Assembly: GCA_013426805.1 (NCBI GenBank)
Contig: JACDZG010000037.1
Coordinates: 1 to 57,832, forward strand
Origin: Chromatiaceae bacterium
GTDB lineage: Bacteria > Pseudomonadota > Gammaproteobacteria > Chromatiales > Chromatiaceae
Reading direction: 5' to 3'
DNA: 57,832 nucleotides
This document shows, one piece after another, positions 3,501 to 19,555 of this stretch. The notes under the pieces are model-generated. The model did no database searches, was not told where the DNA came from, and saw nothing but the letters and a program-made list of their open reading frames with translations. Position 1 is the stretch's first letter, and each line of letters begins with the position of its first letter. The translations under genes were made by a program, and so were the position numbers.

Positions 3501-3524
3501 TAGGGGCGACTGAAGTCGCCCCTA
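3501..3524. repeat. Palindromic repeat forming the intron 5' exon hairpin
   Basis: Two 10-base arms (TAGGGGCGAC / GTCGCCCCTA) around a TGAA loop, directly abutting the first base of the group IIC intron. Closely similar palindromes occur near 48.6 kb and 57.7 kb. Group IIC introns are known to insert just 3' of stem-loops, usually terminators, so this repeat probably served as the landing site. Confidence 0.8.
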
Positions 3525-4512: not shown

Positions 4513-4640
4513 TCAGCGGCGGCTATTCCGGCGAAATTCGGGCGAAATTCGGGCGTGGAACGCGTTCAACCCTTTCCGTCTCAAGGAGATAACGTGTATC
4601 GGTCGGAAGGTGTAACAGGACCGCATCGAAGGAGGCTGCC

Positions 4641-5510
4641 GTGCGCGAATCCAAGTGTGCCTGTGGCGGCGGTGTCTGGATGATCATCCCGACGCTGCCG
4701 GTGCGCTGGATGTATCGGTTCGCATCAACTAATGCGTTCTCCGAGCGCGGGTTGTACTTGAACCTCGGCTACTGGGCCGAGGCGCGGACGATCGACGAGG
4801 CCTGCGAAGCGATGGTCGAGTTGGTCGGCCGAACGGCCGGCCTCAGCAGTGCCGACGAGGTCGTGGATGTCGGCTTCGGGTTCGCGGAGCAGGATATTTA
4901 CTGGACCCGGCGCTTTGCCCCGCGGCGGATCGTCGGCATCAACATCGCGCCTGAACAAGTGCGCGAGGCGCGGGCCCGCGTCCGCAAACTCGGCCTGGAG
5001 GAGCGGATCGATCTGCGCGAAGGCTCGGCCACCGCGACCGGACTGCCCGACGCTTGCTGCGACGTGGTCACCGCCGTCGAGTGTGCCTTCCATTTCGATA
5101 CCCGCGAGCGCTTTTTCGCTGAGGCCGCCCGCCTGCTGCGGCCGGGCGGGCGCTTGGTGCTCGCCGACTCGATCCCGACCGGACCCGGTCCCGATCCATG
5201 GCGGCACCCGTTGCAGGCCTTGCTGGGCGACGTTGCCCGCGCCGCGCTCGCGGTGCCGCGCGCCAATATCTACCCGCGCGATATCTACGCCGCAAAACTC
5301 GCCGCCGCCGGGTTCGAGGCGGTGCAGGTGGAGTCGATCCGCGACCAGGTGTTCCCGGGCTGGCGTCGCGCCTTGGTTGAGGACGCCGGGTTGCGTCGGC
5401 GGCTTGGCATTGGGGGTTGGCTGCTTCGCAGCATTCCCGAGACGCTGTATGAACCGTTCGATTACGTCCTGGCCGCGGCGCGCCGGCAATCGACCGGGAC
5501 GGTCAAATAG
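4641..5510 (+). CDS. SAM-dependent methyltransferase
   Basis: A 289-residue class I methyltransferase. The GTG start at 4641 follows a strong AAGGAGG site. Motif I is VVDVGFGFAEQD (about residues 74-85), followed by GINIAPEQV (the acidic end of beta-2 is replaced by an NIAPEQ motif, as in EryG- and sterol/tocopherol-type small-molecule methyltransferases). Post-motif LLRPGGRLVLADSI (about 160-173) is also typical. The C-terminal half (YPRDIYAAKLAAAGF) resembles the same group. The substrate cannot be inferred; candidates are lipid or quinone-like small molecules. It is not part of the operon on the opposite strand. Confidence 0.75.
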   Translation: MRESKCACGGGVWMIIPTLPVRWMYRFASTNAFSERGLYLNLGYWAEARTIDEACEAMVELVGRTAGLSSADEVVDVGFGFAEQDIYWTRRFAPRRIVGINIAPEQVREARARVRKLGLEERIDLREGSATATGLPDACCDVVTAVECAFHFDTRERFFAEAARLLRPGGRLVLADSIPTGPGPDPWRHPLQALLGDVARAALAVPRANIYPRDIYAAKLAAAGFEAVQVESIRDQVFPGWRRALVEDAGLRRRLGIGGWLLRSIPETLYEPFDYVLAAARRQSTGTVK

Positions 5511-5640
5511 GCTCCGCGCCAATGCTTTACGATGGAGCGATTCGGCCGCGGCCGAACTCCCGATGGGATTCCTGTACCCGTCCATCAGGCTTGAATAAGA
5601 GTGTATGATTCCGGTTCCCGACACACCCTGAGGACCGGTC

Positions 5641-5961
5641 ATGCCTACCCGATTGCGTTTCGCCCTGCTCGCTGCCCTGCTTCCGTCCGCGCTGATGGTC
5701 GCAGTTGCCGATGTCATTCCGCGACCCAACAACTGCCCCAGGGGTTACTATCCCGACGGCAACTACTGTGTGAGTAACTCCGACGCCCGACCCCCTTCGC
5801 GCGGCTATTACGGCAATCCCCAGGAGCACCAGCCGGGGCTTCACTCCGGCTACCCGGCCTACCAGGCGCCGCCGATCATCGAGAAGCACGGCAACTGTCC
5901 CGCCGGCTACCATTCCAATCAAAAGGGCAAGAAGTGCATCCGCGACGGCTATGAAGACTGA
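5641..5961 (+). CDS. Small secreted protein with two Cys-Pro-x-Gly-Tyr repeats
   Basis: A 106-residue protein with a Sec signal peptide (residues about 1-24). The mature part has two matching cysteine motifs, NCPRGYYPDGNYCV (about 30-43) and NCPAGYHSNQKGKKCI (about 85-100). They are joined by a Pro/Gly/Tyr-rich linker. Each motif probably forms one disulfide in the periplasm. Similar short 'CPxGYxxxGxxC' proteins occur in many proteobacteria without known function. It converges on the minus-strand operon with a 25-base gap to the ferritin-like gene. Confidence 0.65.
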   Translation: MPTRLRFALLAALLPSALMVAVADVIPRPNNCPRGYYPDGNYCVSNSDARPPSRGYYGNPQEHQPGLHSGYPAYQAPPIIEKHGNCPAGYHSNQKGKKCIRDGYED

Positions 5962-5986
5962 GGGAAGCCGACTGCTATTCCCGGCC

Positions 5987-6490
5987 TCAAACCCCGCCGC
6001 TGTGCACCATCTCGTAGTAGAGTTTCTCGAGTTCGGCCTTGTGCTTGGTCTCCTCGTTGGCCAGATAGACGAACATGTCCCGAATGGGGCCGGGCTCGGT
6101 TCCCTCGGCCAGTGACTGGTAGTGCTCCATGGCGATGTGCTCGCGCCCCATGGCGTACTGCAGCACCGCCTGGTCGTCCGGCTGGGGTCCCAGGTCGGGC
6201 AGGTGAATGGCGTCGGAAAACCGGGTGTTGTTGGCAGGCGTCTGGACCTCGACCGCGACCTGCTCGACGCTGTCCGGATGGTCCACGAGACCACGCAGCA
6301 AATCGTAGTGGCACTGCTCCTCGGCGGCCAGATCCTCCGCCAGCCAACGGATGTTCTTGCTGACCTTGGGGGCCAGGTCGAGATAGAAATCACGGGCGCT
6401 GGCTTCGAACGAACAGGCAAGCTCCAAGACCTCTTTCAGCGAGGTCTTGGATTTGATCCGATCGTAGCTGCCCTGGTGACCCTCGATCAT
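5987..6490 (-). CDS. Ferritin-like (rubrerythrin-type) diiron protein
   Basis: A 167-residue helical protein with the four-helix carboxylate-bridged diiron pattern: EASARDFY in helix 1, AAEEQCHY in helix 2, GREHIAMEHY in helix 3 and NEETKHKAELE in helix 4. It has no C-terminal rubredoxin domain, so it belongs to the erythrin/ferritin-like group associated with peroxide or oxygen protection or iron handling. The ATG at 6490 overlaps the stop of the preceding gene as ATGA, so it is translationally coupled. It is the last gene of the Mbx-like operon. A protective role for the oxygen-sensitive Fe-S complex is inference from position. Confidence 0.8.
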   Translation of the reverse strand: MIEGHQGSYDRIKSKTSLKEVLELACSFEASARDFYLDLAPKVSKNIRWLAEDLAAEEQCHYDLLRGLVDHPDSVEQVAVEVQTPANNTRFSDAIHLPDLGPQPDDQAVLQYAMGREHIAMEHYQSLAEGTEPGPIRDMFVYLANEETKHKAELEKLYYEMVHSGGV

Positions 6491-8316
6491 GGTGCGTGCT
6501 CCTGAACGGATAGATAGGCATGAATGCTGTCCGCGACCCGGTGCCCGTCGGCAACGGCCGACACGACATCCGGACCGCGCACCATGTCGCCCGCGGCCCA
6601 CAGCCACTCCAGATTGGTGCGACCCTGACCGTCGACCTGGAGGCGCCCGCGGTGCCATTGCAGCACTTCAGTCAGGGCCTCACCCAGCAGGGCCACATCC
6701 GCCGCCTGACCGATGGCCTCGACCACCATGTCACCCGCGTGAATCTGCTCATCGGCGGGCTCATAACTGGGAGCAAACCGACCCGCCCCATCAAATATGG
6801 AGCGCACGCCCCAGGTCCGCAACCCCGCGACCTGCCCCTCGCGCATCAGGATTTCCTGGGGCCCGCGGGCCTCCAGAATCTGCACGCCCTCCTCCCGCGC
6901 TTCCCTGATTTCATCCGCATCGGCCAGAAAGTGGTCCAGGTCTTCGAGCGCCGTCAGGGTGATTCTGACCTCGCCATAGCGCTGCTGCTGGAGCCGCGCC
7001 AGGGTGCGGGCGCTATCCATGGCCACGTTGCCGCCGCCGATGATCACCGCGGACTGGGGGACCTCGATCGCTTCACCTGCCGCCACCGCCCGCAGCAGAT
7101 CCACGGCTCGTTTGACGCCGGCCTGATCGGCGCCCGGCACCCGGGTGGAACGGCCCATCCAGAGTCCGACGCCCAACACCACCGCGTCATACTCCGCCCG
7201 CAGCCGCTCCATGGTCAGGTCGACACCGACCCGGGTGTTGTACCGAATCTTCACACCCAGCGAGATGATGACATCCAGGTCGCGGTCAAGCCGGTCGGCC
7301 GGCATCCGATAGTCGGGGATGCCGTAGCGGACCATGCCGCCGCCTTGGGCCTGGGCTTCCAGCACGGTCACGTCATGCCCTTGCCGGACCAGGTCGAAGG
7401 CGGCGGTGAGTCCGGCCGGCCCGGCACCGACGATCGCGACCCGCTTGCCGGAGATGAAATCGGCCCGACCCTCGGCCGCGATCTGTTTGACCCGCGCGTG
7501 GTCCACCGCGTCCATGGCGTAACGCTTGAGCCAGCGAATGGCGATGGGGGCGCCGCGATGGCCCACCGAACAGGCGGTTTCGCAGCGATGGGTGCAGACC
7601 CGGCCGCAGGTGTGAGCGAAGGGATTGGTGCGGTAGATCTCACGCACCGCGCCTTCCAGATCGCCTTTCCAGATGGCGCGGATGTATTCGGGGGCATGCA
7701 TGTGGGTCGGACAGGCGTCGTGGCACATACCGCACTGGACACAGCGCGATGCCTCGATGAGCGCCTGATGGGCGTCGTACCCGGCCACGATCTCGGAAAA
7801 ATTGCCGATGCGCTCCGCCGGGGCCTGTTCGGTCATCGGCTGGCGATCGAGTGCGACCAAATCCGCGTCGGTCGACTTGGCCCAGCCCTTGGGATAGGGC
7901 GTGCCGTGGATTCCCCGGGCGTCGGGCAGAATGAAATAGCTGTCGAGTTCGCTGTCCAGACAGGTATGGACATATTCGCACGAGAGCGCGATCGACCCCG
8001 TGGGACACAGATCCACGCACAAAGCACACCAACAGCAACGGCCGTAGTCGATGGCCGGGCGCAGATTGCGGATGCCCTTGACCGGGTCCTCGGGCAGGCC
8101 GGGGACCTTGACCATGGTGATGGCGGCGTTGTCGCAGACCTTCTGGCAGGTGCTGCAACCGATGCACAGGTCCCAATCGTTCAGATGGAAGCCGCGGTAG
8201 TTCGCCGCGGCCGGGCGCGGCCCCAGGGGCTCGGTGATCGGCTGACGGGCAAAGAACGACAGGTTCTTGAGCGGACCGAGCAGACCGCCCCGGTCCTGGT
8301 GATCGATGTCGCGCAT
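6487..8316 (-). CDS. NuoI-like ferredoxin fused to GltD/NfnB-type NAD(P)H flavoprotein
   Basis: A 609-residue fusion. Residues about 40-115 are a NuoI-like two-cluster ferredoxin (CIGCSTCQKVC at 51-61 and CCWCALCVDLCP at 94-105). Residues about 185-290 are the Fe-S domain of the glutamate synthase small subunit/NfnB family (CVQCGMCHDACP; CGRVCTHRCETAC). Residues 291-609 form the two-dinucleotide-binding flavoprotein, with GAGPAG for FAD (297-302) and GGGNVAMD for NAD(P)H (427-434). The start was chosen at the ATG at 8316 (TGATG overlap with the NuoD-like stop, GGAGGTGG upstream), not the longer frame. It should sit on the cytoplasmic arm and pass electrons between NAD(P)H and the Fe-S chain. 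Confidence 0.85.
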   Translation of the reverse strand: MRDIDHQDRGGLLGPLKNLSFFARQPITEPLGPRPAAANYRGFHLNDWDLCIGCSTCQKVCDNAAITMVKVPGLPEDPVKGIRNLRPAIDYGRCCWCALCVDLCPTGSIALSCEYVHTCLDSELDSYFILPDARGIHGTPYPKGWAKSTDADLVALDRQPMTEQAPAERIGNFSEIVAGYDAHQALIEASRCVQCGMCHDACPTHMHAPEYIRAIWKGDLEGAVREIYRTNPFAHTCGRVCTHRCETACSVGHRGAPIAIRWLKRYAMDAVDHARVKQIAAEGRADFISGKRVAIVGAGPAGLTAAFDLVRQGHDVTVLEAQAQGGGMVRYGIPDYRMPADRLDRDLDVIISLGVKIRYNTRVGVDLTMERLRAEYDAVVLGVGLWMGRSTRVPGADQAGVKRAVDLLRAVAAGEAIEVPQSAVIIGGGNVAMDSARTLARLQQQRYGEVRITLTALEDLDHFLADADEIREAREEGVQILEARGPQEILMREGQVAGLRTWGVRSIFDGAGRFAPSYEPADEQIHAGDMVVEAIGQAADVALLGEALTEVLQWHRGRLQVDGQGRTNLEWLWAAGDMVRGPDVVSAVADGHRVADSIHAYLSVQEHAP

Positions 8317-9458
8317 CAGCGATCCACCTCCGGGGGGCAGGCGTCGAGTGAGAACATGATCTGGGCGACATCCTCGATCCGGCACCCGATCGCAAGCTGT
8401 TCCAGCACCTGCACCGCGTGCATCTGGGAGGGTCCGCGGACATGGGTGCGGTAGGGCCGCTCGCCGCCGTCGGAGACCACGTACCAGGCGAGCTCACCCT
8501 TGGACGACTCGACCCTGGTATAGGTGGAACCGGCGGGCACATTCCAGGCCAGCGGGTTGGGGATGGGGCAGCGGATGGGTCCGGCGAGCGTCGGCAGCCG
8601 CGCCACGACCTGGCGAATGATCCGGATGCTTTCCTTGATCTCCCGGCGCCGCACCAGCGCCCGCGCCCAAGCGTCGCCCGGTTCCTCGGTGGGGATCTCG
8701 AATTCGAGCTGGTCATAAACCAGATAGGGATCATCGCGGCGTACGTCGAACTTCAGTCCGGTTGCGCGCAGATTCGGCCCGGTCACCCCCCACTCCAGTG
8801 CCTGCTGTTGACTGATCGGCCCGCAGCCCTGGGCCCGGTGGACGAACACCTGGTTGGTAAACAGCAGATTGTCATAGTCCGGCAGACGCGATTCGAGATA
8901 ATCGAGCGTATTGGCGACCCGCTCGCCAAAACCGTCCGGCAGATCCCGGCGCACGCCGCCCGGAATGTTGTAGATGTGATAGACCCGCCCGCCGGTCATT
9001 TCCTCGAATAGATCCAGAATCAGATCGCGGTCGGCGATGCCCCAGAACATCGGGGTATACATGCCGGTAGTGGCCGCATGTCCGCCGAAGATAAAGAGAT
9101 GCGCGGCGATGCGTGAGAGTTCGAGCTGCATCACGCGCAGCCATTGCGCCCGCTCCGGGACCACCAGTCCGCACAGGTCCTCGACCGCCAGACAATAGCT
9201 GACTTCCATGGGCACCGGGTCCGGCACGCAGATGCGCGGCGTGATGGCCAGGTTCTGAATCCACAGCCGGCCCTCCATCAGCTTCTCAAACCCGCGGTGC
9301 AGATAGCCGGCATCCGCCCGCCCGGCGATGACCCTGTCTCCATTCAGACGGAGCTTGAAGGCGTAATTACCCTCGATGCCCGGATGATTGGGACCGATAT
9401 TGAGCTCATAGTCATAGCTCGGCGGCTGTCGCTGCGCTTCATAGTTTTCAGGTCTCAT
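8316..9458 (-). CDS. NuoD-like / group 4 [NiFe]-hydrogenase-like large subunit lacking a full metal site
   Basis: A 380-residue homologue of NuoD and of Ech/Mbh/Mbx large subunits: ELNIGPNHPGIEGN near the N-terminus, LELSRIAAHLFIFGG, LDLFEEMTGGRVYH, and ESSKGELAWYVVSDGG near the C-terminus. The L1 region reads PRICVPDPVP (Cys77, Asp80) and the C-terminal L2 region reads LDACPPEVDR (Cys374, Glu377). Only the first Cys of each CxxC pair is kept, so a normal NiFe centre is unlikely. The Tyr and His used by NuoD for quinone also seem absent (GIEGN in place of STHG). It ends as NuoD does, with no maturation peptide. It overlaps its neighbours on both sides. Confidence 0.85.
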   Translation of the reverse strand: MRPENYEAQRQPPSYDYELNIGPNHPGIEGNYAFKLRLNGDRVIAGRADAGYLHRGFEKLMEGRLWIQNLAITPRICVPDPVPMEVSYCLAVEDLCGLVVPERAQWLRVMQLELSRIAAHLFIFGGHAATTGMYTPMFWGIADRDLILDLFEEMTGGRVYHIYNIPGGVRRDLPDGFGERVANTLDYLESRLPDYDNLLFTNQVFVHRAQGCGPISQQQALEWGVTGPNLRATGLKFDVRRDDPYLVYDQLEFEIPTEEPGDAWARALVRRREIKESIRIIRQVVARLPTLAGPIRCPIPNPLAWNVPAGSTYTRVESSKGELAWYVVSDGGERPYRTHVRGPSQMHAVQVLEQLAIGCRIEDVAQIMFSLDACPPEVDR

Positions 9459-10026
9459 CGACAGTCCTCCGGCTGAAGCGCTGCTCGTCCGGCGGCACGG
9501 CGATGCCGCCGCCGCGCGCCTCCAGATCCTTGAGCCAGTCCGGATGATAGTCTTGCCAGTCGAAGTGTTGATTCACCCAGGCTTCCGAATCGAAATCCTT
9601 GCGCATGGGCGGCGGGCCGTCCCATTCGGTCAGGATGAATTTGCTCAGATCCGGACTGCCCTCGAACCAGACGCCGAACATCTCGTGGATATCCCGTTCG
9701 AAGAACGCGGCGGGCGTATAGATGTCATAGACGGAGATATAGACGCCCGGCTCGCGCGGGATGCGCGTATGCACCGAAACCAGGGACTGCGTCTCATAGG
9801 ACCAGCAGTGATACACCAACTCGAACTGGCCGGCGTCAATCCAGTCGACACAACTGATGGCGGACAGGTGCACAAACGACGCGCGCCCGCGCAGCAATTC
9901 CAGCAGCGCCGGCAAGGCGTCGGACGCCACCTCCACCCGCAGCCGCCGGCGCGACGTGCGCCGGACGCTGATCCCGTCCAGTTCGGCCAGCAGGTTGTCG
10001 AGCCAGGTCGTCAGGTCGTTCGTCAT
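9448..10026 (-). CDS. NuoC-like 30 kDa subunit (MbxK/MbhK-like)
   Basis: A 192-residue protein of the NuoC/30-kDa family, which sits next to the NuoD-like subunit in the peripheral arm and stabilises it. The signature region is FFERDIHEMFGVWFEGSPD (about 127-145), followed by FILTEWDGPPPMRKDF, matching the C-terminal part of NuoC. The start is an ATG overlapping the NuoB-like stop (ATGA at 10026-10023), and its end overlaps the NuoD-like start by 11 bases. It carries no cofactor itself. The identity is clear; whether to label it K-type (Mbx) or C-type (Nuo) depends on phylogeny. Confidence 0.85.
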   Translation of the reverse strand: MTNDLTTWLDNLLAELDGISVRRTSRRRLRVEVASDALPALLELLRGRASFVHLSAISCVDWIDAGQFELVYHCWSYETQSLVSVHTRIPREPGVYISVYDIYTPAAFFERDIHEMFGVWFEGSPDLSKFILTEWDGPPPMRKDFDSEAWVNQHFDWQDYHPDWLKDLEARGGGIAVPPDEQRFSRRTVDET

Positions 10027-10802
10027 TGCGCTGTTCCGCCCTGGTCCGCACGGCTCCGCCGCCGCATCAGCTCCGGAATCTCAATGCGCATCGCCAACGC
10101 CTCCAACGGACGCTGATGCTGTTCCAGCAGGGCGGTATGCGCACCCAGGGTCGCGGGTCCGAAGAGATCGTAATGACGTGCCTCGGCAATCACATCGGTC
10201 GGAGTCTGCCAGTCGGCACCGAACAGGCGCTGCTGATTGCCCAGATAATGGTCATAGCGTCGGTAGTAGTCCTTCCAGGCGTCGGCCCGACCGTTGCGGA
10301 TGTTTTCGATCAGACCGCGCAACCCTTCGATCACCGCCTCCGGACGCGGCATGCAGCCGGCGATGTAAATGTCCACCGGCATGTAGTCATTGAGCTTCTT
10401 CGCGGTCGCATAGCTCTGCCAATACATGCCGCCGTTGACCGTGCAGGAGCAGATCCCGATCACATACTTGGGTGAGTTCATCTGCTCATAGGTCAGTATC
10501 ACCCGCTTCAAGGTTTTCACCGAAACATAGCCGGTGATCAGCAGGATATCCGCCTGCCGCGGCGAGACCATCGGCTGAATACCCAGCCGCTCCATATCGA
10601 AGCGCGCGGTCATCGCCGGGGGCAGTTCGACCGCGCCGCAGCCGGTGCAGTAATGCAGCATGAACAGCGACCGGGACTGCGCAAAGCGCACCAGCTCGTC
10701 GAATACTTGGGCGAACGGGTTGGTGCGCTTCGCCCCCGGCGTCACGCCAATCTCAACCGGCAGCGGAGCGCCGGGTGTCGGAACCTGATCGATGTGGGTC
10801 AC
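10023..10802 (-). CDS. NuoB-like / hydrogenase small-subunit-like Fe-S protein (MbxJ-like)
   Basis: A 259-residue protein carrying the proximal [4Fe-4S] cluster. Ligand candidates are Cys52 and Cys55 (HYCTGCGAVEL), Cys120 (SCTVNGGMYW) and Cys150 (IAGCMPRPEA). The first pair is spaced CxxC, as in membrane-bound hydrogenases and Mbx, not the adjacent CC of true NuoB. This supports the hydrogenase-related branch. The start is GTG at 10802 (family start MTHIDQ). There is a C-terminal extension of about 70 residues beyond the core. It lies 71 bases after the NuoH-like gene, the largest gap in the operon. Confidence 0.85.
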   Translation of the reverse strand: MTHIDQVPTPGAPLPVEIGVTPGAKRTNPFAQVFDELVRFAQSRSLFMLHYCTGCGAVELPPAMTARFDMERLGIQPMVSPRQADILLITGYVSVKTLKRVILTYEQMNSPKYVIGICSCTVNGGMYWQSYATAKKLNDYMPVDIYIAGCMPRPEAVIEGLRGLIENIRNGRADAWKDYYRRYDHYLGNQQRLFGADWQTPTDVIAEARHYDLFGPATLGAHTALLEQHQRPLEALAMRIEIPELMRRRSRADQGGTAQ

Positions 10803-10873
10803 GCGTCACCTGCCAAGAAGGATGGGTCCGCAAATGAAGCCCATGAGCGGGACCTTCATCCACGGGGGAAACG

Positions 10874-11824
10874 TCAATTCATCACAAATGCGATGCCGAG
10901 CAGCCCGATCATCGTCGGCCACTTCCAGAACAGGCGCACCATGTCCTCGGTGCGATAGCGGGGAAACACCATGGCGATCGTCATGGGAATCGCCGTCACG
11001 ACGAAGACCTTGAACAGGAAGGTCAGCCAATGCTCCCCGCCGCCCAGAAACAACGTCACGTAGAGCACGCCCGCCGTATACAGTTGAAAGCACTGCATCA
11101 CGAAGAGCCCGCCCAGGAACTTGCCGCCCATCTCGACCATGGGACCGGTGGCGATCTCGGCCGGGGCGACATAGATCTCGAAGGGCTGCTTGCCCAACAT
11201 ACCCTGGAGCGCAAAGAGCCCGGCCAGGGCCAGCAGCGGCATCTGGACGATACCCCAGCTGGCGATACCGCCGGCCTGCTGAGCCGCGATCATGTGCACC
11301 AGATTCAGTGAGCCGAAGTGAAACGCCACGCCGAAGATCACGATGACCAGCGGCACATCATAAGCCAGCATCGCGGTGAGCGCCCGCGAGATACCAATAG
11401 AGCCGTTGGGGTTGGCGCACTGCCCGACCCCCAGGGCTAATCCCAGGGAGGGGATCATGGTCATGTACAGCAAGGCGATCAGGCCGCCCTGCTGCGCCAG
11501 ACCGTTCATCCCCGGCACCGGCAGCAGGGTCACCGCGGCCACATAGCCGCCGATCGCCATAACGATGCCGATCTCGTGGATCAGTCCATGCGAGGTCTGC
11601 GTTTCCTTGGCGTGCAGCTTGATGATATCCCACAGCGGCTGCGACAGCGGCGGACCCACCCGGCGCTGGAGTCGCGCCGCGATCTTGCGCAACATCAGCA
11701 CCAGGCCCAGGCCCACCACGAAAGCGATCAGGGGCATCAGGATCAGTTCCAGCACCAGGCCCAGCCAGCGGAAATCCACGGCCGCCAACCCATCCAGATT
11801 CACCGCACTCAACCAGTCCATCAT
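10874..11824 (-). CDS. NuoH-like membrane subunit (MbxM/HyfC-like)
   Basis: A 316-residue integral membrane protein with about eight hydrophobic segments. The family signature RRVGPPLSQPLWDIIKL (about residues 54-70) marks the loop facing the peripheral arm, and EIYVAPAEIATGPMVEMGG carries the conserved acidic residues of the NuoH/EchB family. In complex I and its relatives this subunit anchors the Fe-S module and starts the proton pathway. It begins with two consecutive Met codons. It lies 10 bases after the NuoL-like stop, so it is part of the same transcript. Confidence 0.85.
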   Translation of the reverse strand: MMDWLSAVNLDGLAAVDFRWLGLVLELILMPLIAFVVGLGLVLMLRKIAARLQRRVGPPLSQPLWDIIKLHAKETQTSHGLIHEIGIVMAIGGYVAAVTLLPVPGMNGLAQQGGLIALLYMTMIPSLGLALGVGQCANPNGSIGISRALTAMLAYDVPLVIVIFGVAFHFGSLNLVHMIAAQQAGGIASWGIVQMPLLALAGLFALQGMLGKQPFEIYVAPAEIATGPMVEMGGKFLGGLFVMQCFQLYTAGVLYVTLFLGGGEHWLTFLFKVFVVTAIPMTIAMVFPRYRTEDMVRLFWKWPTMIGLLGIAFVMN

Positions 11825-11834
11825 TCGCTCCGTA

Positions 11835-13871
11835 CTACAAGACCCAAGCCAGCATGGCCACCGCGGCAGCGAGCATCAACAGCGTCGGCTGCGCCAGCCG
11901 GTACAGCCCCTCGGCCCCGAAGGAGACCAGATCGAGGGTGGCGGCCAGGGAGCGCTCCAGCCACCGGAAGGCGCCGCGATACCAGGGGCCGATCAGATGC
12001 ATCAGACCGGCATAGAAATTGTCGCTGTACTGGTAATGCACATCGGCCGTCAGGAAATGGCCGCCCGCATAGTTGTCGAGTTGGTGGACGCGTCTGGAGC
12101 GGCCGCCGAAGCCGTAGAAGACCAAGGCGCCGACGCCAAAGCCGGCCATCAGGATACCGACCAGCCAGATCATATCCAGGCCGCCGCGGGGGTCGACGAT
12201 GCCGCCCAGCACCCAGGGCACGACCGGCAGACCGAGTTGCCCCTGGACCTGGGCGACCCAACTCAGCGCCGGCCCAGGGATGAACCCGGCCAGGAAGATG
12301 AGCGCCGACAACCCGAGCATGGGGATCAGCATCGACAGCGGCGCTTCCGCGACCTCCTGGTGCTCCACCCGCAACTGGCCCAAGAAGATATTGTGGATCA
12401 GCTTATAGACCGACAGGATGGTGCCCAGTGTGCCGACCACCGCGGTCACGAACAACAGCGGCATGCCCTCGGTGATCAACGAGCGGTAGACCATCCACTT
12501 GGAGACGAAGCCGGCCATGGGCGGCAGGCCCGCCAGGCTGATGATGCCGAACAGCAGCACCAGGAAGGTGAGCGGCATCCGGGTCACCAGACCGCCAAGC
12601 TGGTTGAGATCCGCCGTCCCGGTGCGGTGAACCACGGCAAAGACCGCCATCAGCAGGGCCGCCTGGGTGATCGCGTAATTGAAGCAATGCAGCAGACCCC
12701 CGGCGGAGCCGACCGCATCACCCACCATCAGACCGAGCAACATATAGCCGCCCTGCCCGATTCCGTGCCAGGCCAGCAGATAACGCGCATCATGCTGCTG
12801 CAAGGCCGTATAGGTGGGCACGATGATGGTGAGCGCCGCAATCCAGGCGATCAGCTCGCGGCTGCTCATAAAGGTGTAGGGAATCTCCAGGGTCATCAAA
12901 CGGCTGACCCCGATCATCCCGACGATAAAGACGATGATGCCGAAAAGCCCCATGCGCGCCGAGATCGCGCCCAGGAAGACCGATCCGGCGCCTGGTGCCT
13001 CGGCATAGGCGGCCGCCTGCCAGAGGTGGAACGGCAGGAGGGCCAGTTTCACCGCGAAACCCCCGCCAAGCAACAGGAGCAGGGTCCAGACCTGCGCATC
13101 GGTCATGCCCCGGATGGCGGCGACGACCGCATCGTATTCGAATGATCCGCCGACACTGTAGAGCAGAGCGATGGCCCCCAGGATCAGCATGGCCCCGCTG
13201 ATGGCATAGGCCAGATATTTCAGCGCGGCCTGAGCACCCAGCCCGCCGACCAGGGCCATCAGCAGAAAGCTGGCCCAACTCACCAGCTCCCAGCCCAGGA
13301 ACAAGGACAGCAGGTCCGCGCTGCCGATCAGCAGCAGCATGCCGAAACAATTCAGGGCCAGGGCGACATGGAAGGCACGCGCGCTCCGGCCCGCCTCGCG
13401 ATACCGGCGCATCCAGGACCCGGCGGCATACCAGGCGGTCACGAACCCGGCCCCGATGGTGAGCATGGCGAAGAACCAGGACAGGGCGTCGTAGGACCAG
13501 TGCAGCGACTGATCGGCGACCGTGATCCGGACCTCGGCGGCCAGCGGTGCACCGAACAGCGTGTCGGTCGACAGCAGGGCGGCGAACTGAGCCCCATAGA
13601 GCAGGACCGCCAGCACCCCGGCGCTGCGCAGCCGACCCAGGAGCAGCATCAGCAACAGGGTGAGCGCGCTCAGCATGAAGAGCCGATCCACCGGGTTCAT
13701 GCCGATCAGCCATTCCAGGGACTGCCGGCCGTAGCGCGTCCAGCTCGCGGAGTTGGTCACCTGGGCCAGGGACTCCCGAATCACACCCGCAAACGCATCC
13801 AGGCCGTCCGGCAGGTGCAGCCCGGTGAGGAGTTGATCCATCACGGTCGTCGGGCTCGTCGCCATGGTCAT
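11835..13871 (-). CDS. NuoL-like antiporter subunit (MbxH'-like)
   Basis: A 678-residue polytopic protein of the NuoL/M/N-MrpA/D family. Visible conserved parts are FLGWELVSWASFLLM, with the key membrane glutamate, and GGGFAVKLALLPFHLWQA, with the conserved lysine and the PFHLW turn. It ends in a final hydrophobic segment after a long amphipathic stretch, as in NuoL. Together with the MrpD-like gene upstream, the complex would hold two antiporter-type channels, as in the archaeal Mbx layout (H and H'). The start ATG overlaps the upstream stop (ATGA). Whether H+ or Na+ is moved cannot be read from sequence. Confidence 0.85.
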   Translation of the reverse strand: MTMATSPTTVMDQLLTGLHLPDGLDAFAGVIRESLAQVTNSASWTRYGRQSLEWLIGMNPVDRLFMLSALTLLLMLLLGRLRSAGVLAVLLYGAQFAALLSTDTLFGAPLAAEVRITVADQSLHWSYDALSWFFAMLTIGAGFVTAWYAAGSWMRRYREAGRSARAFHVALALNCFGMLLLIGSADLLSLFLGWELVSWASFLLMALVGGLGAQAALKYLAYAISGAMLILGAIALLYSVGGSFEYDAVVAAIRGMTDAQVWTLLLLLGGGFAVKLALLPFHLWQAAAYAEAPGAGSVFLGAISARMGLFGIIVFIVGMIGVSRLMTLEIPYTFMSSRELIAWIAALTIIVPTYTALQQHDARYLLAWHGIGQGGYMLLGLMVGDAVGSAGGLLHCFNYAITQAALLMAVFAVVHRTGTADLNQLGGLVTRMPLTFLVLLFGIISLAGLPPMAGFVSKWMVYRSLITEGMPLLFVTAVVGTLGTILSVYKLIHNIFLGQLRVEHQEVAEAPLSMLIPMLGLSALIFLAGFIPGPALSWVAQVQGQLGLPVVPWVLGGIVDPRGGLDMIWLVGILMAGFGVGALVFYGFGGRSRRVHQLDNYAGGHFLTADVHYQYSDNFYAGLMHLIGPWYRGAFRWLERSLAATLDLVSFGAEGLYRLAQPTLLMLAAAVAMLAWVL

Positions 13872-15445
13872 TCCTTGTCGGCCAAGGGTTGGGGAAAGAC
13901 GGTGTCGATATAGAGCAGCACGTCACCGGTCTGCTGTGCCAGCACGCGCAGGGCCTCGGTCGTCGGGGTGATCGCGACACTGATCACCACCAGACAGGCC
14001 CCCAGCAGATAGGCGACGCCGGTATCCCAGCGTGCCGGCGGGGCCAGGCGGAGCGCCCGATCCGGCACCGGCGGCTGATAGAGCCGCAGGGCGACGCGGA
14101 ACAGGTAATGGGCCTCCACCGCGGTCGCCAGGAGGATCGCACCCAGCGCCAGCAGATCCAGCGGCGCGCCGCCCTGCACCAGCCCCACCATGATCAGCAG
14201 CTTGATCCAGAAACCCCAGAGCGGCGGCACGCCGATCAGGGACAGCGCGAAGAGCACAAAGAGTCCGGCCGCGCGGGGCGCGCCTTTGGCCGCCCCCGCC
14301 AACGCATCCAGCCCGCCGCTCCAGCGGTTGGCCAGCCCGAAGAGCGCGGACTTGACGATCAGATGGTGCAAAGCGACCGCGGTCCCGGCCAGGAGACCGG
14401 TGGTCCCGTCGATCGAAAAAGCGATGGCAACCAGACCGAGCTGGCCGATCGAGGAGAAGGCGAGCAGGCGCGGGAAATCCTGCGCACGCCAGGCCGAGAA
14501 CTCGCCGGTGAGCACGCCGAGCACGCCCAGCACCAGCAGCAACTGGCTCGCCTCGGGTTGCTGGAAGACCAGGATCAGCAGCCGCACGATCACCAGGATG
14601 GCAAGTTTCGAGATCAGTCCGGCCAGCAGCGCGGAGACCCGTGCCGGCGCGGTGGCATAGACCTCGGGCACCCAGGCGTTGAGCGGAAAGAGCTCCGCCT
14701 TGACTCCGAAACCGATCAGCAACAGGGCGAAGGCAGCCAGACCGATAGGCCCCTGCAACGTCTCGGGGGCCACCTGCGCGAGCTGGGCCAAATTCAGAGT
14801 GCCGGTCTGCAAGTACAGGATCGCGATGCCGACCAGGGCCAGCACCGACCCGAAGGCGCTGATGAACAGATACCGCAGGGTGGCGATTCGGGCGCGTCCG
14901 CTGTCGTCGGCGCAGACCAAACCGAAAGAAGCCACCGCCGCCAATTCGTAGAAGACAAAAATATTGAACAGATCGCCGGAGAGTGCCAATCCGGTCGCGG
15001 CCGACGCCAACAGCAGCGCCAGCGCGTCGCGGCGCGGTGCCCGCTGCCGATCGGCCGCGGCCTCCGCCTTGGCGACAACACCCAGGCCGGGCCAGAACAG
15101 AAGCGTGAAGACCTGAACCGCCAGGGCGAACAGCAGCGCCAGTTGATCCGCGTAGAACACAATCCCCAGGGGCGCGGCGAAGCCGCCGATGGCCACGCTG
15201 AAGGGTGCCGGACCCACCTCCAGCCAGGTGTTGAGGATGATCCAGGCGCCCAGCGTCAACACCAGCGGCCCCAGCAGCCGGGCCAGCAGGCGCGACACCT
15301 GGGCCAGCGGCTGCATCAGAAAGGCGGCCAGCAGCGGCAGGACCACCGGCAGCACGATCGCGTTCGCGGTCATGACCCTGGTCAGATCAAGGTTCAGATC
15401 CAGGTTCAGACCAAAGAGCAGATCGACAGGCAGCTCAAGCGTCAT
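13868..15445 (-). CDS. MrpD/NuoN-like antiporter subunit (MbhH-like)
   Basis: A 525-residue membrane protein of the proton-conducting antiporter family. FVFYELAAVASFGLV carries the conserved glutamate, FGVKAELFPLNAWVPEVYATAP carries the lysine and the L-P-L-x-x-W-V-P segment of MrpD/NuoN proteins, and LALSLIGVPPLWGFWIKL follows further on. It is preceded by the MrpC-like gene with an ATGA overlap and followed by the NuoL-like gene with another. In Mrp systems C and D form the core of the Na+/H+ exchange unit. In this operon they are fused functionally to a redox arm. Confidence 0.85.
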   Translation of the reverse strand: MTLELPVDLLFGLNLDLNLDLTRVMTANAIVLPVVLPLLAAFLMQPLAQVSRLLARLLGPLVLTLGAWIILNTWLEVGPAPFSVAIGGFAAPLGIVFYADQLALLFALAVQVFTLLFWPGLGVVAKAEAAADRQRAPRRDALALLLASAATGLALSGDLFNIFVFYELAAVASFGLVCADDSGRARIATLRYLFISAFGSVLALVGIAILYLQTGTLNLAQLAQVAPETLQGPIGLAAFALLLIGFGVKAELFPLNAWVPEVYATAPARVSALLAGLISKLAILVIVRLLILVFQQPEASQLLLVLGVLGVLTGEFSAWRAQDFPRLLAFSSIGQLGLVAIAFSIDGTTGLLAGTAVALHHLIVKSALFGLANRWSGGLDALAGAAKGAPRAAGLFVLFALSLIGVPPLWGFWIKLLIMVGLVQGGAPLDLLALGAILLATAVEAHYLFRVALRLYQPPVPDRALRLAPPARWDTGVAYLLGACLVVISVAITPTTEALRVLAQQTGDVLLYIDTVFPQPLADKE

Positions 15446-15933
15446 GCGCCGCGCTCCCGAACGGGCGCGGAACGCCGCACCAATTCATAATCCGGAACCG
15501 GCGGCAGCGGGCGCTGACCGAGCGGCGCCTGGGCACTGCCGGGTGCCGCAATGCCCGCGGCGGCGGCGATCTCGCCCTCCATCCGCCGCCGCAAGTCGCG
15601 CATATCCAAGGTCCCATAAGACCGGTAGACCCGCACCAACACGGCGACCGCCAGCGCCTGCACGCCGACTCCGATGACGATGGCCGTCAGCACCAGCACC
15701 TGAGGCAGCGGGTCCACCAGCGGCGCCCCGGCCGGACCGTAGCCGATGATCGGCGCAATGGCCCCGTCGCGGAACCCTGTCAAGACCAGCAACAGATTTG
15801 CGCCCGACTCGGCCATCGCCAACGCCAGCAGCATACGGAACAGATGGTTGCAGATCACCAGCCCGAGGCCGCCGATGACCACCAGGCCAATGGCTCCCGC
15901 ATAGCTTACCGTTTCCAGAGACCAGGGAATCAT
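15442..15933 (-). CDS. MrpC/NuoK-like subunit (MbhG-like)
   Basis: A 163-residue protein with three hydrophobic segments. The diagnostic stretch DPLPQVLVLTAIVIGVGVQA near residues 88-107 is shared by MrpC and NuoK relatives. The C-terminal 50 residues form a polar tail longer than usual for MrpC. Its start overlaps the MnhB-like stop and its end overlaps the MrpD-like start, both as ATGA. This indicates stoichiometric coupled synthesis with the antiporter module. Confidence 0.85.
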   Translation of the reverse strand: MIPWSLETVSYAGAIGLVVIGGLGLVICNHLFRMLLALAMAESGANLLLVLTGFRDGAIAPIIGYGPAGAPLVDPLPQVLVLTAIVIGVGVQALAVAVLVRVYRSYGTLDMRDLRRRMEGEIAAAAGIAAPGSAQAPLGQRPLPPVPDYELVRRSAPVRERGA

Positions 15934-16619
15934 CGGTCGGGCGCCTCCGTATCGGCCAGGTGAGCCAGGAGCCCGGCCAGTTCGGCGCCGACCTTGAGCC
16001 CGATCGCCACCGAGAGCAGCGGCAAGGTTCCGGCCGAGACCAGTTCGCCCATGGTCCCGAGCGGCAGCAAGGGGGTCAGAAAGTGGCCATCCTCGACCAG
16101 GGTCCAGAGGCCGATCAGGATGAAGGCCGCACCCGCCAGCCCCTCGATCCAGCCAAGCAAGGCATGGTTGAGTGTGCGCGCCGGATTGGCCAGGAGCGCC
16201 ACGAAAAAGGCCGCGGCCAGAATGACGCCGCCCTGGAACCCACCGCCCGGCGTGAGATGGCCATGCACCACAACAAAGATCCCGACCACCAGCAGCAGCG
16301 GAAACAGCAGATCAGCCCCGGCGCTCAGCACCAGCCCGCCGGGCGGATCGCGGCGGGCGTCCGCGCGCCGATGCCCCAGCACCAGGCTGGCGGCGGTCGC
16401 CGCGGCGAACAGAATGGACAGCTCACCCAGCGTATCGAAACCGCGATAGCCGGCAAGGATAGCGGTGACGATGTTGGCGGCGCCAAGCTCGGGACCGGCG
16501 ATCCGCAGATACTCGGCCCCGACCCGCATATCCGGATAGCCGAGCGCCAGTTCGGCGCCGATCACCAGCAACAGGAAGAGCAGTCCGGCGCTGAAGACCA
16601 GGGAGGCGATGTTACGCAT
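15930..16619 (-). CDS. MbhE-MnhB fusion subunit (MrpA C-terminal/MrpB-like)
   Basis: A 229-residue protein that joins two short subunits. The N-terminal part has GYRGFDTLGELSILFAA, typical of MbhE or of the MrpA C-terminal region. The second half has HGHLTPGGGFQGGVILAAAF, the MnhB/MrpB signature. In many organisms these are separate genes or part of MrpA. In the archaeal Mbx cluster a comparable fused subunit is found, as far as I recall. It has about six membrane segments. The start overlaps the end of the DUF4040 gene by eight bases. Confidence 0.8.
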   Translation of the reverse strand: MRNIASLVFSAGLLFLLLVIGAELALGYPDMRVGAEYLRIAGPELGAANIVTAILAGYRGFDTLGELSILFAAATAASLVLGHRRADARRDPPGGLVLSAGADLLFPLLLVVGIFVVVHGHLTPGGGFQGGVILAAAFFVALLANPARTLNHALLGWIEGLAGAAFILIGLWTLVEDGHFLTPLLPLGTMGELVSAGTLPLLSVAIGLKVGAELAGLLAHLADTEAPDR

Positions 16620-16923
16620 CGGCGTCGCCCCCCGGCCCCGCGCGCCCTGAATGGGGCTTCAGTCCAACCCCTTCGCCGTCATCCAGTTGCCACAATCCCA
16701 GCCGACGCAGGGCCAGGGCGAGGATGACACCGCTCAGCCCGGCGCCGACCGCCGCCTCGGTCATGGCCACATCCGGCGCCTGCAGCAGCACATAGAGCAC
16801 GGACAACGCGAGCCCGACCACCGCGGTGGCCGCCACCGCGGCGACGAAACTGCGCAGCGTCAACACCAGCACCGCGGCGACCAGCATCACCACCACGATC
16901 ACCAACGCAATTGAGGTGAGCAT
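16612..16923 (-). CDS. MbhD-like DUF4040 membrane subunit (MrpB1-type)
   Basis: A 103-residue protein with three membrane segments. LLQAPDVAMTEAAVGAGLSG matches the DUF4040/MbhD signature, equivalent to a piece of the MrpA C-terminal region. The frame stays open further upstream into the MrpG gene, but I choose the ATG at 16923 because the protein then begins directly with its first hydrophobic helix (MLTSIALVIVVVML) and lies four bases after the MrpG stop. The Asp and Glu in the signature are thought to belong to the ion path. Confidence 0.8.
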   Translation of the reverse strand: MLTSIALVIVVVMLVAAVLVLTLRSFVAAVAATAVVGLALSVLYVLLQAPDVAMTEAAVGAGLSGVILALALRRLGLWQLDDGEGVGLKPHSGRAGPGGDADA

Positions 16924-16927
16924 CGCC

Positions 16928-17254
16928 TTACCCCCGTGCGGTGCGATCGGCGTCGGCCAGACCGGGCGCCGCCTGCCAGGGCCGCACACCGGAACGGTAG
17001 AGCGCGCGGGCGATGGTGGACGAGGACACCGGACTGGTAAACAGGATGAAACCGGCGATGCAGACCAGCTTGGCCCACCACTGGGGCTGCAACAGACCGA
17101 TCCCGATCAGCACGCCGATCGCCCCCAGGGTCGAGGCCTTGGTGCCGGCTTGGATGCGGTTGTAAACATCGGGCATGCGCAGAATGCCCAGCGCCCCGAG
17201 CAGGGTGAAGACAGCCCCGCCCAGCAACACCAGATCGGCGATGAACCGGATCAT
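16928..17254 (-). CDS. MrpG-like antiporter subunit (MbhC-like)
   Basis: A 108-residue protein with three membrane segments. GALGILRMPDVYNRIQAGTK is the MrpG/MnhG/PhaG signature, followed by a third helix near the TSPVSSSTIARAL segment typical of the family. The polar C-terminal tail is about 20 residues. Its ATG overlaps the MrpF stop (ATGA). In Mrp antiporters E, F and G are accessory subunits needed for assembly and ion exchange. Confidence 0.85.
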   Translation of the reverse strand: MIRFIADLVLLGGAVFTLLGALGILRMPDVYNRIQAGTKASTLGAIGVLIGIGLLQPQWWAKLVCIAGFILFTSPVSSSTIARALYRSGVRPWQAAPGLADADRTARG

Positions 17255-17571
17255 GAGCGATCTCCGTCGGCGCCGTCCCGGTCGTTGCGCGACCCACCGG
17301 TGCCGTCGATGGCGCGGGCGATCGCGACGATCGCGATGAATGACAGCACCCCGTAGACCAACGCTACATCCAGGAACAGCGGGTTGTCGAAAAGCAGCGC
17401 GAGCCCCGCAATGCCGGTGGTGGTGATCACCGTCAGGGTGTCGGAGGCCACCACCCGATCCGGCGCCCGCGGCCCCAGCACCAGCCGCACCAAGGCCAGC
17501 AGCAGCGCCAGCCCAAGCAGCACGAAGGCCGCCGTCTCCAGTGGATTCAGCGTGATGGCATACAGGGTCAT
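17251..17571 (-). CDS. MrpF-like antiporter subunit (MbhB-like)
   Basis: A 106-residue protein with three membrane segments. RLVLGPRAPDRVVASDTLTV is the MrpF/MnhF signature, with the conserved Gly-Pro and Pro-Asp-Arg. A polar, Asp/Arg-rich tail of about 17 residues ends the protein. It overlaps the MrpE stop upstream and the MrpG start downstream, both by ATGA. Confidence 0.85.
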   Translation of the reverse strand: MTLYAITLNPLETAAFVLLGLALLLALVRLVLGPRAPDRVVASDTLTVITTTGIAGLALLFDNPLFLDVALVYGVLSFIAIVAIARAIDGTGGSRNDRDGADGDRS

Positions 17572-18092
17572 TTCAGGAAACCGCGGATGTGCCGTTCAAA
17601 TGATTCGGAGATGGCCGCCGTCGCCGCGGCAAGATCGGTACCGGGCGAGCAATCGATCCAATGGACCAGCAGCCGATCGCCGAGCACGTCGATCGTCAGG
17701 GTGCCGGGGGTCAGGGTGATGCTGTTGGCAAGCAGCATGCGCCCGAGCGACGACCGCAGCCGCGTCTGCACCTCGACCACCCCGGGGCGGATCGGCAGCG
17801 ACGGCGACAGCACCCGGCGCGCAACATCCAGATTGGCATGGACCAAGGCCGCGAAGAACACCCAGAGATACCGGAGCAGATGCACCGGCGCGAGCGGCGC
17901 GAGGCGCACACCGCCGAGGATGGCGAGCCGCGGACCGGCGATCAGGGTCACCAGGAACGCCGTCACGCCGCCCGCGATCAGTTCATCCTGACGCAGGGTT
18001 CCCGCGAGCAGGACCCACAACAGAAAAAGCACGGCCATGGTAAAGAGATAATGGCCCAGTGTCGGACGCGGGTCGGCGCGGTGCTGTTCCAC
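17568..18092 (-). CDS. MrpE-like antiporter subunit (MbhA-like), first gene of the operon
   Basis: A 174-residue protein of the MrpE/MnhE family: two hydrophobic segments near the N-terminus, then a soluble domain with LLANSITLTPGTLTIDVLGD, the family signature. It ends in an amphipathic helix. It is the first gene of the 14-gene minus-strand operon; upstream (18093-18324) there is no further same-strand gene of the system. No clear sigma-70 promoter is visible in the GC-rich upstream sequence. Confidence 0.85.
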   Translation of the reverse strand: MEQHRADPRPTLGHYLFTMAVLFLLWVLLAGTLRQDELIAGGVTAFLVTLIAGPRLAILGGVRLAPLAPVHLLRYLWVFFAALVHANLDVARRVLSPSLPIRPGVVEVQTRLRSSLGRMLLANSITLTPGTLTIDVLGDRLLVHWIDCSPGTDLAAATAAISESFERHIRGFLK

Positions 18093-18324
18093 AGGGAGAC
18101 CTCACAAGACCGGGTGAACCCCGGATCGGGCCACAACCATGGGGCGCCGGCGACTGCCAGGACCCCGACATGGCGGGGAGTATACCCGCGTCGGCCTTGA
18201 TCGGCATCACGGCTACCGACGGTCCGGCCATCCTGTTATGGCGACTGCCGTTGCGCAGTTGCGTGAAGCACTTCGAGAGAAAAGTCGCTCACCAAGCCGA
18301 AGTGCTCGGTGAAAAGACCAGGGC

Positions 18325-18816: not shown

Positions 18817-19311
18817 CTACGGGGGGAGAGGTTCGTCCGCCGCGCGGAGCACTGCGCACCGAGTCGGATGGCTCAATCGAAAGCCCTGGCGTTGCAGCGC
18901 GTCGATCAAGGGCGTGACGGACGCAATAAATCCAGCACGTTTGGCATCCAGCAGAATTCCCAATGTGCCGGTGAGGCGAAGGCCCAGCAGGGTGGCGTGG
19001 CGACGGGCGAGCGCATCATCCAAGATCACCACCGGATCTCGACAGTCCAGCGCGAGTGCCAGAACCCCGGTTTCGCCGGAACCGAGGGCTGCAACCAGCC
19101 GGAGCACTCGCACATGGGGCGGCGGACGCAGGTCGATCCATCCCAGGGCTTCGGGTACCGGCCGATCGCAACCCAACCGTCGGCCTTCTTCCAACTCCTC
19201 AGCCACCGTGGTCGGGACGATGACCCGCCCCACCAGCCGCGGCAGCAGGTCCAGTTGCCCGATCTGATGCAGATATTGAAGCGGCGAGGTATTGCAGATG
19301 ACCTCAGACAA
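18817..19311 (-). CDS. PIN-like toxin of the DUF3368 family
   Basis: A 164-residue protein if started at the TTG at 19311. That start gives LSEVICNTSPLQYL, the usual DUF3368 opening (...NTSPL...), and overlaps the antitoxin stop. A longer ATG frame from 19338 is possible but adds residues the family lacks. Later conserved parts are VPTTVAEEL, GSGETGVLALAL, DPVVILDDALAR and GTLGILLDAKRAG, the PIN-like acidic positions. DUF3368 proteins are PIN-fold RNase-like toxins paired with UPF0175 antitoxins, and the partner lies directly upstream. It appears intact among decayed genes. Confidence 0.8.
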   Translation of the reverse strand: MSEVICNTSPLQYLHQIGQLDLLPRLVGRVIVPTTVAEELEEGRRLGCDRPVPEALGWIDLRPPPHVRVLRLVAALGSGETGVLALALDCRDPVVILDDALARRHATLLGLRLTGTLGILLDAKRAGFIASVTPLIDALQRQGFRLSHPTRCAVLRAADEPLPP

Positions 19312-19555
19312 GGGAAGCCTGCTCCGCGATCTCGGCATCAGAGAGCATGAAGGTATCGATTCCGTAATCCGCCAGGCGGTTCAAGAAGAGTGTGCGCGGG
19401 ACTCCTGCCAGCCGGGCAGCCCCGCCCGATGACAAACGTCCCAGTTCAAAAAGCTTCATGGCAGCGGCCAGGCGGATCTCCATTGCGGCAGCGGCATTGG
19501 ACAGCCGCAGCGACAGCAGCGTTTCGTCCGGGACATCCAGGATCAGTTGGCTCAT
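19304..19555 (-). CDS. UPF0175-family antitoxin
   Basis: An 83-residue protein. VPDETLLSLRLSNAAAAMEI near the start, then LAAAMKLFELGRLSSGGAARL and AGVPRTLFLNRLADYGID are the typical UPF0175 layout: a short strand, then a helix-turn-helix-like region (GAARLAGVPRTLF) and a C-terminal acidic tail that binds the toxin. It overlaps the toxin gene start by eight bases (TTG within the last codons), so the two are co-translated. It may autoregulate the pair through the HTH-like part. No operator was identified. Confidence 0.8.
   Translation of the reverse strand: MSQLILDVPDETLLSLRLSNAAAAMEIRLAAAMKLFELGRLSSGGAARLAGVPRTLFLNRLADYGIDTFMLSDAEIAEQASLV

Follow-up and report, generated by a model that had tools for sequence, protein, structure and literature searches.

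The window analysed here, a 57,832-nt stretch that forms an entire contig (JACDZG010000037.1) of a 7.6 Mb Chromatiaceae genome, carries at positions 5987-18092 a gene cluster that we assign to the Mbx/Mbs family of ion-translocating redox complexes. A total of 14 intact open reading frames lie there on the minus strand, each with a match to its expected Pfam family. The start codons of the MbhD-like, N and ferritin-like genes were picked among candidates. The genes are:

17568..18092, minus strand: MrpE-like subunit (MbxA position); MNHE PF01899, 1e-38; start GTG 18092 or ATG 18038
17251..17571, minus strand: MrpF-like subunit (MbxB); PF04066; 4-bp overlap
16928..17254, minus strand: MrpG-like subunit (MbxC); PF03334; top solved structure 6u8y_C (MBS)
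16612..16923, minus strand: MbhD-like subunit (MbxD); PF13244; chosen start ATG 16923
15930..16619, minus strand: MbhE/MnhB fusion subunit; PF20501 and PF04039
15442..15933, minus strand: MnhC-like subunit (MbxG); PF00420 (Oxidored_q2)
13868..15445, minus strand: MrpD-like antiporter subunit (MbxH); Proton_antipo_M; top solved structure 6u8y_H
11835..13871, minus strand: second antiporter subunit (MbxH'); Proton_antipo_M; top solved structure 6u8y_X, taken as MbsH'
10874..11824, minus strand: NuoH-like membrane anchor (MbxM); PF00146 (NADHdh)
10023..10802, minus strand: NuoB-like small subunit (MbxJ); Oxidored_q6; CTGCG motif; three-Cys cluster signature
9448..10026, minus strand: NuoC-like subunit (MbxK); PF00329 (Complex1_30kDa)
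8316..9458, minus strand: NuoD-like large subunit (MbxL); Complex1_49kDa; C-terminal DACPPEVDR
6487..8316, minus strand: NuoI-GltD fusion (MbxN plus Fe-S flavoprotein); start taken as ATG 8316; ALE at the YRR position
5987..6490, minus strand: ferritin-like di-iron protein, probable 14th subunit; PF02915 (Rubrerythrin); start ATG 6490

With these starts, 12 of the 13 junctions fall within -11 to +10 bp, the exception being NuoH-NuoB (+71 bp), and NuoI and GltD form one fused gene. The fourteen near-contiguous genes described in the initial annotation are all present. The gene-order comparison proposed there was run across relatives. All 14 genes were matched in the same order in seven complete relatives (L013-L018 and L020), and 20 of 80 homologous loci showed this full order, one of the 20 being the same contig as L013; the other 60 have contig-end cuts, no ferritin-like gene, or partial matches. 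Given that each gene has its own family match and that the 14-gene order is repeated in relatives, the cluster is beyond chance.

MBS chains of Pyrococcus furiosus (PDB 6u8y) were the top solved-structure matches for the L, J, H, H' and MrpG proteins. The large subunit scored 388 bits against 6u8y_L, 275 against Thermus thermophilus Nqo4 and 123 against MBH, and its identity was 49.0% to P. furiosus MbsL (over 363 columns), 42.6% to Nqo4 and 28.4% to MbhL. For the NuoB-like subunit, 6u8y_J scored 221 bits and the next-best chain 112. The first 13 genes, with families assigned by Pfam, make up a 13-subunit cluster that is collinear with the archaeal mbx/mbs gene order and that includes the second antiporter subunit, both as first annotated. 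A tree of 95 large subunits answered the phylogenetic check suggested at the outset; L021 (not MBX), rows below 350 aa and L068, which duplicates the contig of L013, were excluded from it. The 88 MBX/MBS rows split from NuoD with support of 100/99, and the refuting outcome named beforehand, a large subunit inside Nuo, did not come about; the order at the base of the clade is unresolved and the hydrogenase side of the tree unsure because long outgroup branches meet there. The window large subunit falls within a clade of 42 Pseudomonadota rows (100/100), which joins Spirochaetota (100/97).

Diagnostic residues were taken from the P. furiosus MBS paper (PMC7684303). All 88 MBX/MBS large subunits lack H38 and Y87 of complex I and two of the four NiFe cysteines, and keep C85; C385 is kept in 86 of them, with Tyr in L019 and L020. 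The window protein has Cys at C85 and C385, Glu at H38 and Val at Y87, in line with the incomplete NiFe site noted initially. A special role for the Glu at H38 was considered and dropped, since one alignment places a Glu of P. furiosus MbsL there and another does not. In the NuoB-like subunit, the CTGCG motif aligns without gaps to that of MbsJ and is therefore the MBS motif and not, as the initial annotation had it, one of the hydrogenase type. Of the 89 aligned small subunits (rows of 140 aa or less excluded), 86 keep C28, C93 and C123, the residue following C28 being Gly and not a second Cys, and the other three are two complex I-type rows with a CC pair and one truncated row. At the C25 position these 86 have Cys (n = 50) or Gly (n = 36). 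In P. furiosus MBS, the proximal cluster held by three cysteines is reported to do catalysis, its open iron is lost on oxidation, and C25 is a non-ligand in the structure and dispensable for activity (PMC7684303); the natural change of C25 to Gly thus agrees with three cysteines holding the cluster. Most of the antiporter residues that the same paper names for MBS are kept in our reading of the alignment: E138, K250, H330 and K393 in MbxH, with Lys at the E219 position, and E128, K217, H336 and K399 in MbxH', with Arg at the K248 position.

Based on the gene order, the tree, the pocket residues and the MBS structure matches, we assign the complex to the Mbx/Mbs family and, as the initial annotation held, to neither complex I nor the hydrogenases. 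Canonical complex I was ruled out by the absence of H38 and Y87, by a clade separate from NuoD and by the lack of any Pfam match to NuoE, F or G among the 14 genes. A divergent NADH:quinone oxidoreductase of the complex I kind is very hard to credit on the same grounds and because the host genome has a separate Nuo cluster (L114), although the NCBIfam models for NuoD (440 bits, cut-off 360) and NuoB (183 bits, cut-off 116) are both passed. The group 4 [NiFe] hydrogenases (Mbh, Hyf and Ech) were ruled out because only two of the four NiFe cysteines are present. Nor is the complex of the archaeal ferredoxin-linked MBS subtype, as its N subunit carries a flavoprotein in the NuoI-GltD fusion.

The best model for the NuoI-GltD protein was NF010590/PRK13984, at 755 bits and thus under its cut-off of 946. 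NuoI followed by GltD was found in 78 of 98 loci, and this flavoprotein fusion is common in bacterial Mbx and not special to the window. Four loci have NuoI without GltD and at least 1.4 kb of sequence after NuoI (archaeal L105 and Chromatiales L121, L122 and L125); of the other 16, four break off too early, and in 12, including L021 (not MBX), NuoI was not matched in the vicinity of L. Within the NAD(P)-binding part of GltD, 31 of 67 rows show the YRR motif and 36 a non-YRR motif, including the window with ALE (rows below 560 aa were left out, then L068 and a reference removed and six rows added). On a tree built without the motif columns, the loss of YRR is a single change (100/100), and none of 500 shuffles gave as low a count; the non-YRR clade consists of Pseudomonadota and Spirochaetota. 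In the homologous DsrL, kinetics on three enzymes link YRR to NADP(H) and the lack of YRR to NAD(H): the YRR enzyme uses NADP(H), one non-YRR enzyme uses only NAD(H) and another strongly prefers it (PMC7596348). The DsrL-like protein of the host genome has SLF where the window flavoprotein has ALE. With ALE replacing YRR, the cofactor rule of DsrL predicts that the window flavoprotein uses NAD(H), which is more likely than NADP(H). The donor first given as NAD(P)H or ferredoxin can be refined accordingly in its NAD(P)H part.

The protein encoded by the last gene of the cluster has E29, E58, H61, E117, E147 and H150, which are invariant in 33 of 33 ferritin-like proteins and are by motif the likely di-iron ligands. 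Its predicted structure is a helical bundle (pLDDT 74), the top Foldseek matches of which are ferritin-like di-iron proteins (probability 1.0, TM-score about 0.6, best E 0.011, none below 0.001). Ligand motif and model together place it among the ferritin-like di-iron proteins, which are four-helix bundles with Glu/His ligands. A ferritin-like gene was found no more than 1.8 kb downstream of the flavoprotein gene in every readable non-YRR locus of Pseudomonadota (31 of 31) versus 2 of 21 readable YRR loci, after 12 of the 67 loci with less than 700 bases downstream had been excluded. In Spirochaetota, the flavoprotein itself has a C-terminal extension of about 160 residues in four of four readable cases, which matched the ferritin-like family in a profile comparison (probability 85, E 6.6e-7, 148 columns). 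The model of one such extension (pLDDT 85.5) resembled ferritin-like folds, with a TM-score of 0.66 to TM1526 and no E below 0.001. The di-iron residues are missing from the extension, and the domain may therefore be structural there. The constant neighbour in non-YRR Pseudomonadota and its fused counterpart in Spirochaetota together suggest that the ferritin-like protein is probably a subunit of the complex. It could instead be an unrelated stress gene that chances to trail the operon, as the two YRR loci with such a gene (L078 and L127), the 1.1 kb gap to the flavoprotein in L018 and the missing di-iron residues in Spirochaetota might indicate. We consider this quite unlikely given the 31/31 versus 2/21 distribution, the fusion in Spirochaetota and the gene's occurrence on another core (L020, L123 and L128), again together with a non-YRR flavoprotein. 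As a subunit, the protein would probably guard or re-supply the open iron of the catalytic cluster, a guess of ours prompted by the iron loss of MBS on oxidation.

That other core belongs to one of several Mbx types in Chromatiales, which we read from score tiers and not from a tree. Of 210 genomes, 56 have the window type, judged by a score of at least 697 bits. A cultured strain, Parasulfuritortus cantonensis LSR1 (L036), also carries this type. A second core, with Tyr for C385, occurs either with the non-YRR flavoprotein and the ferritin-like gene (L020, L123 and L128) or with a YRR flavoprotein (L126 and L127), and a third type has NuoI without GltD, with MrpE at the far end (L121, L122 and L125). 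The large subunits of L019 and L020 (Tyr) group with Fermentibacterota (99/97), away from the window type, whereas the flavoproteins of L020, L123 and L128 fall inside the non-YRR clade (100/100). From these placements, with L020 as the only locus in both trees, the flavoprotein and ferritin-like genes appear to have moved together onto another core. One genome (G094) has two Mbx clusters, L127 with a YRR flavoprotein and L128 with a non-YRR one. Eight Thiotrichaceae-like loci of 4.7-20.6 kb (L059-L064, L066 and L067) have the large subunit, five of them with J and K, and no H', M or flavoprotein match was found nearby in these eight; the partial clusters may reflect fragmentation or dispersal. 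In two genomes, the Mbx cluster stands next to genes for POR alpha and beta and, after them, for a GltD-like protein that has a ferredoxin-like stretch at its C-terminus; among loci with annotated flanks, POR genes were beside the cluster only in these:

POR/GltD-like stretches in G037 and G009: L015 17090-19843 with L023 5507-7722; L025 2812-7278

The host genome contains dsrA and two reaction-centre genes, and what we read as a DsrL-like gene lies about 5.5 kb from dsrA on the same contig. With dsrA and reaction-centre genes within one genome, the host is a phototrophic purple sulfur bacterium, which the initial annotation had called probable. The closest named locus is from an uncultured Lamprocystis metagenome-assembled genome (large subunit 99%). 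Among seven other genomes of the genus, two have the cluster, at 93.7 and 95.5% DNA identity over 12.3 kb, and the other five (one in 3 contigs) gave no match at E 1e-100. The host also encodes, on contig C109 (L115, 1671-17121), another group 4-like cluster, with a large subunit from which all four NiFe cysteines are missing (SSSG). This is an odd Ehr-type complex, and the proteins encoded beside it are 1030 aa long (CbiA/ParA-like match) and 1099 aa long (weak AAA match).

On balance, we lean towards the window complex being a reversible ion-translocating NAD(H):sulfane oxidoreductase, the substrate and direction of which we infer from sequence comparisons. NAD(H) would exchange hydride with the flavin adenine dinucleotide of the GltD domain, and electrons would travel singly through the GltD and NuoI Fe-S clusters and reach the NuoB-like subunit at its proximal [4Fe-4S] cluster. 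There, with three Cys ligands and one open iron, the S-S bond of a polysulfide or organic persulfide would be cleaved or formed, and by coupling H+/Na+ would pass through both antiporter subunits and the Mrp module. The redox potentials of NADH and polysulfide are close, so that the direction should depend on the ion gradient. In the light, the gradient would drive electrons taken from sulfide-derived sulfane onto NAD+; in a dark and anoxic cell, NADH from stored carbon would reduce stored sulfur. A phototroph has spare gradient and needs NADH in the light, and has spare NADH and stored sulfur in the dark. We regard the two directions as about equally likely to be the main role. The fullest form of this proposal is a 14-subunit machine in which a light-made gradient drives sulfane electrons to NAD+, bypassing the quinone pool, a ferritin-like subunit guards or refills the labile iron, and dark reversal reduces stored sulfur; that all of this would hold together seems improbable.

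A link to sulfur metabolism is suggested by the distribution of the family. In a class-level sample, an Mbx-type large subunit was detected in 17 of 369 genomes, 13 of them at 709 bits or more, like the window. A dsrA match was present in all 17 carriers versus 117 of the 369 genomes overall (Fisher p = 1.4e-9), and above the curated cut-off in 16 of 17 versus 112 of 369 (p = 3.0e-8), values that overstate independence because the genomes are related (15 families among 17 carriers). Besides this relatedness, several observations weigh against the proposed function. The scores of four of the 17 carriers resemble those of other Mbx types. The dsrA contrast is weak within the order (96 of 104 carriers versus 89 of 106 non-carriers, p = 0.048), and this co-occurrence adds little as support; one genome that is 98% complete (G009) has the complex without a dsrA match. 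The non-YRR motif is common to Spirochaetota too and so is no mark of sulfur oxidation, and the top solved structures for the NuoI-GltD protein are soluble flavoproteins, with 6u8y_N covering the NuoI part at 68.5 bits. Electron flow from NADH to polysulfide yields little energy for an arm with two antiporters. In a tubeworm symbiont, the complex shares co-expression neighbours with the reductive tricarboxylic acid (rTCA) cycle and hydrogenases but not with the majority of genes for sulfur oxidation (PMC11636981). This pattern speaks against a straightforward role in sulfide oxidation and keeps rival explanations in play. Some Mbx type was present in 38 of the 77 genomes of the order with reaction-centre genes.

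One such rival is purely reductive sulfur respiration in the dark, in which ferredoxin at NuoI, with NADH via GltD, reduces globule polysulfide and the resulting gradient feeds ATP synthase. Dark sulfur reduction is known in Chromatium, and records named Thiomargarita or Parabeggiatoa have large subunits of the window's clade (L061-L064 and L066). P. furiosus MBS is a characterised reductase (PMC7684303), mbxA of Thermotoga maritima rises 4.36-fold after S0 (PMC9431562), and Beggiatoaceae respire stored sulfur with polyhydroxyalkanoates in anoxia (PMC4959497). The POR genes beside the cluster in G037 and G009 point the same way. NADH as sole donor would, however, give little driving force, Chromatiales also hold a GltD-less Mbx suiting ferredoxin (L121, L122 and L125), and the non-YRR motif parallels DsrL-1, which occurs with oxidative-type DsrAB (PMC7596348). 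We regard this respiration as possible yet doubtful. More doubtful still is that the pocket substrate is not sulfane but another hydrophobic disulfide or redox partner, the complex acting mainly as a balancer, coupled to ions, of NAD(H) against ferredoxin or carbon metabolism (rTCA, PFOR). The co-expression neighbours in the tubeworm symbiont (PMC11636981) and the POR genes in two genomes would suit such a balancer. So would the carriers in Spirochaetota and Bacteroidota, which are not known as sulfur oxidisers. The cluster and pocket residues nevertheless agree with MBS throughout, and every carrier in the class sample has a dsrA match.

The putative NAD(H):sulfane oxidoreductase shares with P. 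furiosus MBS (PDB 6u8y) the subunit set, two antiporter subunits, the Mrp module, CTGCG and C85/C385, and both are without a quinone site or full NiFe site. MBS, however, takes ferredoxin and its N subunit (208 aa) has no GltD, whereas the window has NuoI-GltD, the non-YRR motif and the ferritin-like neighbour. Thermotogota-type bacterial Mbx has the NuoI-GltD fusion and a collinear cluster (L095 and L104) but differs by its YRR motif (NADPH type), and no ferritin-like gene was found downstream; MBX of T. maritima has been studied at the transcript level (PMC9431562). Flavoproteins of the DsrL-1/NfnB/GltD kind share the Fe-S flavoprotein fold, and DsrL-1 likewise lacks YRR, but DsrL is a partner of rDsrAB and not part of a membrane complex (PMC7596348). 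Complex I and group 4 [NiFe] hydrogenases share ancestry of the core subunits with the window complex, which differs in lacking the quinone residues and two of the four NiFe cysteines. A 'putative Mrp-Mbx complex' has been named in Endoriftia, a tubeworm symbiont, with function and direction listed as unknown (PMC11636981), and the parts of that account covered here make no mention of the YRR motif or a ferritin-like gene. Other tubeworm symbionts (L039, L041 and L044) have the window type with the non-YRR motif and ferritin-like gene, and we infer that the window type is the published Endoriftia complex.

The Mbx/Mbs family itself is thus already known and widespread, and an NCBIfam model exists for its bacterial flavoprotein (PRK13984, with a cut-off that the window protein does not reach). 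Literature searches found nothing on Mbx in Chromatiaceae or Thiodiazotropha, at the level of titles and abstract beginnings no published description of the YRR change or the ferritin-like gene, and no printed report of the class-wide dsrA co-occurrence of carriers (17/17). As far as searched, three features are new: the single YRR change, a ferritin-like partner that also has a fused counterpart, and the exchange of modules.

The flanks of the cluster were also profiled. DNA similarity of the window to its congeners largely ends near 18245. Upstream of the cluster, DUF3368 and UPF0175 genes (18817-19555), which we take to be perhaps a toxin-antitoxin pair, lie next to an Eco57I-type methylase match (19623-20423). 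On the other side, dispersed repeats at about 3501-3580 and 3857-3953 have many copies in the two nearest congeners, with 49 and 52 repeat matches in all to window positions 3500-5980. Across 34 Pseudomonadota loci (194 flank genes), one cluster of flank genes recurs in 8 loci with varying distance and orientation, and all others in four or fewer. Flank genes were dropped as a functional guide.

The 36 natural small subunits with Gly for C25 agree with the proposal, made from the P. furiosus structure, of a cluster with three ligands. The three input types found within one order, namely no flavoprotein, an NADPH-type and an NADH-type with a ferritin-like partner, suggest that Mbx-type complexes are re-wired by exchange of one module. 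If the proposed function is true, sulfur-oxidising Pseudomonadota, including purple sulfur bacteria, tubeworm and clam symbionts, and Sedimenticola and its kin, would hold an ion-coupled link between sulfane and NADH, and no such link is known from the standard electron-flow schemes for these bacteria. The cluster would then be a candidate gene set for the route of sulfide electrons to NAD(P)+ in purple bacteria and for the enzyme behind the reduction of stored sulfur in darkness under anoxia.

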